From Rhodocollybia butyracea (taxonomy: Eukaryota > Basidiomycota > Agaricomycetes > Agaricales > Omphalotaceae), in the NCBI GenBank assembly GCA_015501585.1, contig JADNRY010000002.1:62001-126000 (forward strand): DNA of 64,000 nucleotides, read 5' to 3'. The notes beneath the pieces were generated by a model. That model ran no database searches, was not told the origin of the DNA, and saw only the letters and a program-made list of their open reading frames with translations. The translations under genes and the position numbers were made by a program. Position 1 is the stretch's first letter; every line of letters begins with the position of its first letter. Shown here one piece after another: positions 3,856-8,331 of this stretch.

Positions 3856-4324
3856 ATGTCCCGTCTTTCCAACTTCAGCACTGTTTTCTTTATCGCCTTC
3901 CTCTTCCAGGTCTTGACCGTTCACGGTCTTCCTGAGCCCCGTAGTACTGTAACTCACTGTAAGTTCGAGTTTTGATATGTTTATCATTGATTACATGCTT
4001 ACATTTCTTTGTGTAGGTGGAGCTGAGGGAGCTGTAAGAGTTTTTTTTTTCGGCCATTGACCTGTGCAGCTAACAATACTCAACGCTTCTATAGGCCCCC
4101 TACTGTATGTCTTCGACCTAAACCGCCGGTTATAACTATCTTAACTTATGAGACGTGTAGGTGCATCCGGATTCAAATGTTGTGGACCGTTCTTCAGACC
4201 TATTGACGGTAGCGAGCCTGCCTTTGGAACGTCAGTATATCATTTGCGTAGTTTCAAAACTGTTGCTGACGCTGTCCGTGGATATTACAGCTGTGTTCCT
4301 GAGAGCGGACCCTGCCCTCTCTAA
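3856..4324 (+). CDS. Small secreted six-cysteine protein A1 (knottin-like)
   Basis: Five exons: 3856-3958, 4017-4033, 4095-4104, 4161-4230 and 4291-4324, giving 77 residues. The N-terminus (MSRLSNFSTVFFIAFLFQVL) is a signal peptide, probably cut after TVHG at about residue 24. The mature part has six cysteines spaced C-x7-C-x5-CC-x16-C-x6-C and ends two residues later, the order seen in inhibitor-cystine-knot folds. Exon 3 is only 10 nt. Introns 1 and 3 split the codons of Cys I and Cys II in phase 1, and intron 4 lies just before Cys V. An in-frame ATG at 3826 would add ten residues ahead of the signal; A2 lacks it, so 3856 is preferred. The fold is inferred from spacing only. The function is unknown; an effector, inhibitor or antimicrobial role is possible. 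Confidence 0.75.
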
Positions 4325-5024: not shown

Positions 5025-5505
5025 ATGTTGTTCAAACTCACTGTCCCTGCCGTCTTCGTGGCGTTGTTGTTAAACACTCTGGCAGCCACTGGCGTTGGAG
5101 CTGTCCCGCAAGGTCCCATTATCCTCCCATGTAAGTCTGTTCCTTACAGTATGTGCCTCAGGCTTTTATGGACTCCACTGATGCTCCCAATGTGATTAGG
5201 CAGCGGAGCCGATGATACTACCAGCGTAAGTCAGAGCTCAACTTTTTTAAATGCTCGTAATTGTCCTCACAACTGACTACTTGCTCTATCTTACCGCTCT
5301 GTGCTTGCATATACGTAGTGTGAGTAGCGTGAGTGTAACCTCGTCGAAAAGTAAATTAATCTTTGTCTCAGGCCCTTCAGGCGATCTTTGCTGCTTTAAC
5401 ACCGGGGCTTGGAGGTGAGCCATGCGATGTAGGGTACAGGTTACCGAGTTGTTTACCTTGTTCGATCTTAGATGTCAAGCTGCTGGTCTCGAGTGCACTG
5501 TATAA
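5025..5505 (+). CDS. Small secreted six-cysteine protein B1 with a single-nucleotide exon
   Basis: Exons 5025-5130, 5200-5225, 5319 (one base, T), 5372-5414 and 5472-5505, giving 69 residues. The protein starts with a signal peptide (MLFKLTVPAVFVALLLNTLA). The mature part has the spacing C-x8-C-x5-CC-x7-C-x6-C and stops two residues later. Cys II exists only if the lone T at 5319, flanked by TAG on its left and GTGAGT on its right, is kept as an exon between a 93-nt and a 52-nt intron and joins GC of exon 4. All four intron positions match those of the A genes: Cys I codon, phase 0, Cys II codon, and just before Cys V. Treating 5226-5371 as one intron instead gives a cysteine-poor tail. Transcript data are needed to settle it. 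Function unknown. Confidence 0.7.
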
Positions 5506-6548: not shown

Positions 6549-7015
6549 ATGCCCCGTCTTTCTAACTTCAACACAGTTTTCTTTATCGCCTTCCTCATCC
6601 AGGCCTTGACTGTTCACGGTCTTCCTGAGCCCCGTAGTACTACCGATGTGGTTCACTGTAAGTTCGAGTTGTGACATGTTTGTGATTATATGCTTATATT
6701 CCTTTGTTCAGGTGGTTTTGTAGGAGCTGTAAGAGTGTTCTTTGGCCACTGATCTGTGCAGCTAACAGTATTCAACGCTCCTCTAGGCCCCCTACTGTGT
6801 GTATTTGGTTAGAAATGTCGGTTATGTTAACTTATGAGGCGTGCAGGTCCTTCTGGATTCACCTGTTGTGGACCGCTCTTCGATTTTCCTGACGGAACTC
6901 TCCTTGGAGCGTTTGTATATTATCTATATATTTCCAGAAATCTCACTGACGTGCTCACTACTTTGCCCGTGGATATTACAGCTGTGCTCCCGGGGACGGA
7001 CCTTGCCGTTTCTAG
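6549..7015 (+). CDS. Small secreted six-cysteine protein A2 (knottin-like)
   Basis: Duplicate of A1 in the second unit. Exons 6549-6657, 6712-6728, 6787-6796, 6847-6910 and 6982-7015 give 77 residues. The signal peptide (MPRLSNFNTVFFIAFLIQAL) and LPEPRST after it are nearly identical to A1, while the mature part has diverged except for its cysteines, glycines and prolines: C-x7-C-x5-CC-x14-C-x6-C. The loop between Cys IV and Cys V is two residues shorter than in A1 and has different residues. Exon 3 is the same 10 nt as in A1. The intron 4 donor is the weak GTTTGT. Conserved scaffold with variable loops fits functional divergence after duplication. Function unknown. Confidence 0.75.
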
Positions 7016-7853: not shown

Positions 7854-8331
7854 ATGTTGTTCAAGCTCACTGTCCCTGCCGTCTTCATGGCGTTGTTGCT
7901 AAACACTCTGGCAGCCAATGGCGCAGACGCTGCCTCGCCATCTGCGGGTCCCATTATCCTCTGTAAGTTTGTTCCTCATAACATATGCCTCAGTCTTGCA
8001 TGGACGTGACTGACACGCTCAATTAGGTAACGGAGCCGATGATACTACCAGCGTAAGTCGGAGCTCGATCTTTTTAAGTGCTCTCAATTGACCTCACAAC
8101 TGACTGCTTGCTTTATCTTACCGCTCTGTGCTTGCATATACATAGTGTGAGTAGCGTGAGTGCAACATCATTGAAAAGTAAACTAACCTTTGTCTCAGGC
8201 CCTTCAGGCGATCTTTGCTGCTTTAACACCGGGATTTGGAGGTGAGCCATGCAATATAGGGTATAGTTACCGAGTTATTTACCTTATCTGATCTTAGATG
8301 TCAAGCTGCTGGTCTCGAGTGCACTGTATAA
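7854..8331 (+). CDS. Small secreted six-cysteine protein B2 with a single-nucleotide exon
   Basis: Duplicate of B1. Exons 7854-7962, 8027-8052, 8146 (one base, T), 8199-8241 and 8298-8331 give 70 residues. The signal peptide is followed by a slightly longer pro-region (ASPSAGPIIL) and then C-x8-C-x5-CC-x7-C-x6-C. The single T again sits between TAG and GTGAGT and completes the Cys II codon. Intron 3 has a CTAAC branch-like site and a CTCAG acceptor. Introns 2 and 3 are 93 and 52 nt, exactly as in B1. The last exon is identical to that of B1, and the two genes differ freely just after the stop codon, which supports the stop used here. Confidence 0.7.

Follow-up and report, generated by a model that had tools for sequence, protein, structure and literature searches.

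Single-nucleotide exons are known and very rare, and the locus described here raises the question of whether one T, standing between two introns, is such an exon. The window, that is, the whole stretch of DNA that was analysed (64,000 nt; positions 62001-126000 of contig C494 in a 95.6-Mb assembly), comes from Rhodocollybia butyracea (Omphalotaceae, Agaricales) and contains a tandem array, A1-B1-A2-B2, in which B1 and B2 encode secreted cysteine-rich peptides, each with a candidate single-T exon (5319 in B1, 8146 in B2). The species is described as a decomposer of forest litter (PMC8480192). An Rfam scan of the window returned nothing at the gathering score.

Gene structure of B1 and B2

The gene models of B1 and B2 comprise the following features, numbered from the first letter of the window.

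B1
5025..5130, + strand: exon 1, hydrophobic N-terminus and first base of the Cys I codon (gene model; the start agrees with public model P0001)
69 nt, + strand: intron 1 (gene model)
5200..5225, + strand: exon 2, 26 nt, loop between Cys I and Cys II (gene model)
5226..5318, + strand: intron 2, 93 nt, GTAAGT...CGTAG (gene model)
5319..5319, + strand: putative single-nucleotide exon T, first base of the Cys II codon (gene model, site comparison)
5320..5371, + strand: intron 3, 52 nt, GTGAGT...CTCAG (gene model)
5372..5414, + strand: exon 4, remainder of the Cys II codon, PSGDLCCFNTGAW (gene model, exon 4 comparison)
57 nt, + strand: intron 4 (gene model)
5472..5505, + strand: exon 5, Cys V, Cys VI and stop (gene model)

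B2
7854..7962, + strand: exon 1 (gene model)
64 nt, + strand: intron 1 (gene model)
8027..8052, + strand: exon 2, 26 nt (gene model)
8053..8145, + strand: intron 2, 93 nt, GTAAGT...CATAG (gene model)
8146..8146, + strand: putative single-nucleotide exon T (gene model, site comparison)
8147..8198, + strand: intron 3, 52 nt, GTGAGT...CTCAG (gene model)
8199..8241, + strand: exon 4 (gene model)
56 nt, + strand: intron 4 (gene model)
8298..8331, + strand: exon 5 (gene model)

An earlier, sequence-only reading had placed the T of both genes between a 93-nt intron ending in TAG and a 52-nt intron starting with GTGAGT, and this arrangement was found as described. The same reading held the two copies to have introns of equal length, which is correct for the 93- and 52-nt introns beside the T but not for intron 1 (69 versus 64 nt) or intron 4 (57 versus 56 nt). 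Its claim that inclusion of the T opens the Cys II frame, while skipping loses the cysteines, was borne out by translation: with the T, B1 and B2 encode 69 and 70 aa, respectively, with the spacing C-x8-C-x5-CC-x7-C-x6-C and six cysteines after residue 25, whereas without it the products (80 and 94 aa) retain two.

The pattern [CT]AG-T-GT[AG]AGT occurs on the + strand of the window solely at the 5319 and 8146 sites, and once on the - strand. It arose by chance in 0.2% (B1) and 0.08% (B2) of 20,000 dinucleotide shuffles per interval, performed without the first six and last three bases. The agreement between B1 and B2 is by itself weak evidence because their intervals are 88% identical.

A second candidate T is present in B1 at 5334 (AG|T|GTAACC). 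It would yield an mRNA identical to that of T5319, so that the two are indistinguishable from reads. In B2 the corresponding donor is GC, and it is the position of T5319 that is conserved at all six sites considered below.

The alternative that survives best takes the interval (5226-5371; 8053-8198) as one GT-AG intron of 146 nt, which would make the T intronic and the product a low-cysteine protein. Such an intron has canonical ends, leaves the frame open (80-94 aa) and is the one used in the public model of B2, P0002, in which the T is skipped and the end of the protein lies in the other frame. The evidence that bears on this alternative comes from homologous sites, other species and the remaining public models.

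Two-domain relatives and conservation of the site

A strict pattern search of the genome identified four places (B1, B2 and one each on contigs C610 and C235), with none in the backward control. On C610 and C235 the place belongs in each case to one gene of nine exons encoding 96 aa, with two six-cysteine peptide domains and two one-nucleotide T exons.

C610 two-domain gene: L014 815-1639, T exons at L014 1067 and 1447
C235 two-domain gene: L015 808-1638 (C235:79040-79870), T exons at L015 1060 and 1447

The total of six sites is a lower bound, made up of the four found by the strict pattern, of which each DNA search found two, and the two domain 1 sites that were read. A pattern search of prokaryote contigs gave 449 matches and no relatives.

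The regions C610:17650-30556 and C235:75090-88953 are colinear over approximately 13 kb. Since their five largest blocks are 94-99% identical, the two genes are probably alleles of one two-domain gene, and the six sites then count as about four independent ones. Shorter pieces of the two regions are 75-96% identical. Of the five largest blocks, the gene-bearing one is the most diverged, at 94% against 96-99% for the rest, and C235 carries approximately 1.4 kb extra between two blocks relative to C610. Within the two-domain gene, the one-nucleotide exon appears to have been copied when the domain was duplicated, and one pre-mRNA is predicted to contain two such exons.

TAG|T|GTRAGT is present at all six sites, with upstream introns of 88-101 nt and downstream introns of 52-57 nt. 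The sites fall into three types (B, domain 1 and domain 2), with interval identities of 49-60% from one type to another and 88-89% within a type, and alignment of the whole intervals places the T of all six in a single column. In the TAG-T-GTRAGT block nine of ten columns are invariant versus 27 of 149 elsewhere, making it the best 10-column window; the last column and the hexamer at the donor of intron 2 are excluded from this count, which draws on sites from one genome. The corresponding Fisher p value of 5.6e-6 takes columns as independent, an assumption that related sequences do not satisfy. A single 146-nt intron gives no reason for TAG-T-GTRAGT to be the best conserved stretch.

Substitutions in exon 4

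Synonymous and nonsynonymous changes in exon 4 were compared between the frame that includes the T (Cys frame) and the frame that skips it in 15 non-independent pairs of sites. The Cys frame was favoured in nine: all eight pairs of a B gene with a domain of the two-domain genes, and domain 2 of C610 versus domain 2 of C235. For B1 versus domain 2 of C610, changes over sites were 5.0/8.5 synonymous and 2.0/30.5 nonsynonymous in the Cys frame, and 1.0/11.7 and 7.0/30.3, respectively, in the skip frame; domain 2 of C610 and that of C235 differ by three synonymous and no nonsynonymous changes in the Cys frame, and by none and three in the skip frame. In both comparisons the skip-frame changes are thus mostly nonsynonymous, contrary to what a single 146-nt intron would predict.

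Five pairs did not favour the Cys frame, namely B1 versus B2 (no synonymous and two nonsynonymous changes in the Cys frame, one of each in the skip frame) and the four comparisons of a domain 1 with a domain 2, which showed no preference or a slight lean to the skip frame (for example 2.0/8.5 synonymous and 8.0/30.5 nonsynonymous in the Cys frame, 4.0/11.8 and 8.0/30.2 in the skip frame). The remaining pair had zero differences in the compared codons. The skip frame gave no clear sign of selection.

Relatives in other species

Protein searches identified five relatives outside R. butyracea, four of which have a cysteine exactly at the Cys II residue.

P0009, Gymnopus androsaceus: Cys at the Cys II place
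P0010, Collybiopsis luxurians: Cys at the Cys II place
P0011, Mycena epipterygia: Cys at the Cys II place
P0012, Mycena leptocephala: Cys at the Cys II place
P0006, Gymnopus: Gly at the Cys II place, spacing unchanged

These four relatives keep Cys II together with the following CC, both of which a single 146-nt intron would remove from the R. butyracea proteins. The peptide has a C-C-CC-C-C framework and may resemble granulin or knottin. Among nine proteins compared with Pfam, no family scored above the cut-off and a sub-threshold WAP match was obtained with the C610 product only; a search of solved structures with the same product gave no relative, its two matches having E values of 0.5 or worse. 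The predicted structure of the Collybiopsis protein P0010 (seven rows) reached a pLDDT of 60 and a pTM of 0.38.

Public gene models

A glycine takes the place of Cys II in two public models, P0001 for B1 and P0003 for the C235 gene, the latter in both domains. Every model with one intron or two, each 20 nt or longer and with GT-AG, GC-AG or AT-AC ends, was enumerated at the six sites: the Cys form can be reached at all six, in every case only via the one-base exon, and the Gly form at none. For B1 and the two C235 domains, the Gly models must therefore hold one misplaced extra base. When boundaries were left unrestricted, eight single-intron placements, all with non-canonical ends, yielded Gly at the three sites; each site has two that amount to the canonical intron of 146-156 nt displaced by a single base, with a G kept, and B1 has two more, also non-canonical.

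These models would be the trace of transcripts with one extra base that the aligner could not place, in which case the RNA would contain the T. The model numbers offer a hint in the same direction: those of A1, A2 and B2 are consecutive (1412815-1412817), while that of B1 is 1310366. A second hint is that annotations in the R. butyracea genome paper (strain AH 40177) are reported to have been improved with RNA-seq (PMC8480192), the assembly of that paper being assumed to be the present one, and STAR run without annotation is reported to have mis-mapped reads across exons of this kind (PMC8831610). The errors are telling in themselves, as Cys has become Gly in two R. butyracea models and another model has a frameshifted protein. 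The 3' parts of P0004 (A2, 6549-7015) and P0002 (B2, 7854-8331) leave the cysteine frame, which is probably due to missed splice sites.

The base added in the public models of B1 and C235 is a further point against a single 146-nt intron, and, taken with the substitutions, the relatives and the conserved block, leaves that alternative very unlikely. Two other in-frame solutions were weighed, and each is given only the faintest credence. The first is a single GC-AG intron whose donor lies two bases further upstream (A|GCGTRAGT...CAG|GC; 148 nt in B1), which keeps the frame and its CC..C..C and is possible at five of the six sites, domain 1 of C610 having GT for GC; it would, however, lose Cys II, which is present in four of the five relatives, leave an odd number of cysteines (five per domain), pass over the better donor GTRAGT two bases downstream and give a protein one residue per site shorter than P0001 and P0003. 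The second is another in-frame choice, either the GT that lies four bases into the donor (AGCGTAA|GTC..., S-V-S-P in B1), which makes a formal GT-AG intron and keeps the frame at each of the six sites but has poor donors (e.g. GTCAGA, GTCTCA), loses Cys II and is used by no public model found, or a stwintron, whose donor-split form needs an exon 2 ending in G or GT when five of six end in C.

In a stwintron, a nested spliceosomal twin intron, one intron lies inside another and interrupts its donor, branch point or acceptor. The B and two-domain sites probably do not fall into this class, judging by the exon ends at five of the six sites for the donor-split form and by a hand inspection of B1 for the acceptor-split form.

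The sister A family

Where the B genes have the one-nucleotide exon, the A genes carry a 10-nt micro-exon at the homologous position.

4095..4104, + strand: A1 10-nt micro-exon, GCCCCCTACT (residues in public model P0008)
6787..6796, + strand: A2 10-nt micro-exon, GCCCCCTACT (residues in public model P0004)

The evidence for A1 is drawn from its second and third exons only. The 10-nt exon is also present in two copies on contig C716 (L008, at 1751-1760, and L006), and its residues appear in all four A-type public models found (P0004, P0005, P0007 and P0008). As in B, the intron after the micro-exon divides the Cys II codon of the A type as T|GY. Exon 2 and micro-exon measure 17+10 or 14+10 nt in the A type and 26+1 or 23+1 nt in the B and two-domain genes, summing to 27 or 24 nt in either group, from which it follows that the upstream intron of the B group lies exactly three codons (9 nt) further downstream. 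The donor is GTRAGT after the six one-nucleotide exons and GTRTGT after the four 10-nt exons. The shared place, codon split and totals speak in favour of the one-nucleotide exon. Together, the 1-nt exons and their 10-nt homologues form a natural series in which to study how a single base is kept by the spliceosome between two introns.

The A-type copies L006 and L007 (on C716 and C614) differ by small indels, and seemingly neither L006, as modelled, nor L007, judged by eye, gives a six-cysteine product.

Discussion

Based on these comparisons, we conclude with high confidence that the T is very probably a genuine exon of one nucleotide, on which the six-cysteine product depends and which has been inherited with gene and domain duplication. 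At all six sites one base stands between AG and GT with introns of normal size on both sides, it is needed for the conserved frame and residue (six of six sites, four of five relatives), and it is conserved across homologues within the one genome. The sequence-only reading, which had taken the T for an exon, has thereby gained support from four further sites in other parts of the genome, from the cysteine of the other-species relatives, from the exon 4 pairs that favour the Cys frame and from the additional nucleotide that public gene models hold at the junction.

The arrangement would consist of two short U2-type introns separated by one base at the Cys II codon. Splicing in sequence would use the acceptor TAG|T to remove the upstream intron and the donor T|GTRAGT to remove its downstream neighbour, and the retained T would be joined to GC or GT to complete the codon. 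On the second donor, the footprint of U1 reaches over the AG of the first acceptor; AG and GT are one base apart and would not both be bound at once, which makes sequential removal probable. Both flanking introns are of ordinary size for fungi. A median intron of 56 nt is cited for F. graminearum (in PMC12940212), and an argument for sequential removal similar to ours has been made for APC11 (PMC4674806). It is plausible that intron definition underlies the T exon, each of the two introns presumably being recognised as a unit and then removed in sequence. In B and domain 2, CTAAC or TTAAT lies 12-13 nt before the acceptor of intron 3, and no clear branch point was seen in intron 3 of domain 1 among the sites inspected.

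The rarity of such exons had been illustrated earlier by a plant APC11 gene; that case is indeed documented, in Arabidopsis and other land plants (PMC4674806, PMC8831610), but the list was incomplete, since VPS55 of plants (PMC8831610) and CYP621A of Fusarium (PMC12940212) have also been published. APC11 likewise has one coding base between two introns that is essential to the frame and was missed in annotation; it differs in gene, kingdom and base (A), and was verified by reporter constructs and RNA, whereas the exons described here are identified by comparison alone (PMC4674806, PMC8831610). The 1-nt microexon of VPS55, missed by annotation in all species of that study, is similarly followed by a GTRAGT donor, although VPS55 has copies with and without the exon as well as intron-retention isoforms, while all six of our sites keep it (PMC8831610).

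Another close parallel is CYP621A, reported from 20 Fusarium orthologues as, in its authors' words, the first fungal case, in which short introns flank a base that completes a conserved codon and gene models are wrong (PMC12940212). That exon is of an ascomycete, has the form AG|G|GT, supplies the central base of a Gly codon in a PKG motif, is described once per gene and is supported by 18 SRA reads (PMC12940212). The exons described here are of a basidiomycete, have the form AG|T|GT, supply a first codon base and occur in tandem copies and twice per gene, and the homologous 10-nt exon of a sister family sets them further apart from CYP621A. One-nucleotide exons are also reported from organelles, with group II introns (PMC12308204), and a further organellar example has been described (PMC5436844). 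A literature search covering titles, abstract openings and few subscription papers found no basidiomycete nuclear case and no gene with two such exons.

The sequence comparisons support well the view that the R. butyracea exons add to a known phenomenon and are notable for their multiplication by gene and domain duplication. We lean towards a more general view, in which one-nucleotide exons are a stable heritable trait of gene families, spreading by gene or domain duplication, and exon length shifts in whole codons. By including or skipping the T, the genes could even toggle their secreted product between a form with six cysteines and one with few. In Gymnopus one model shows the same misplaced Gly, and the trait probably reaches that genus too.
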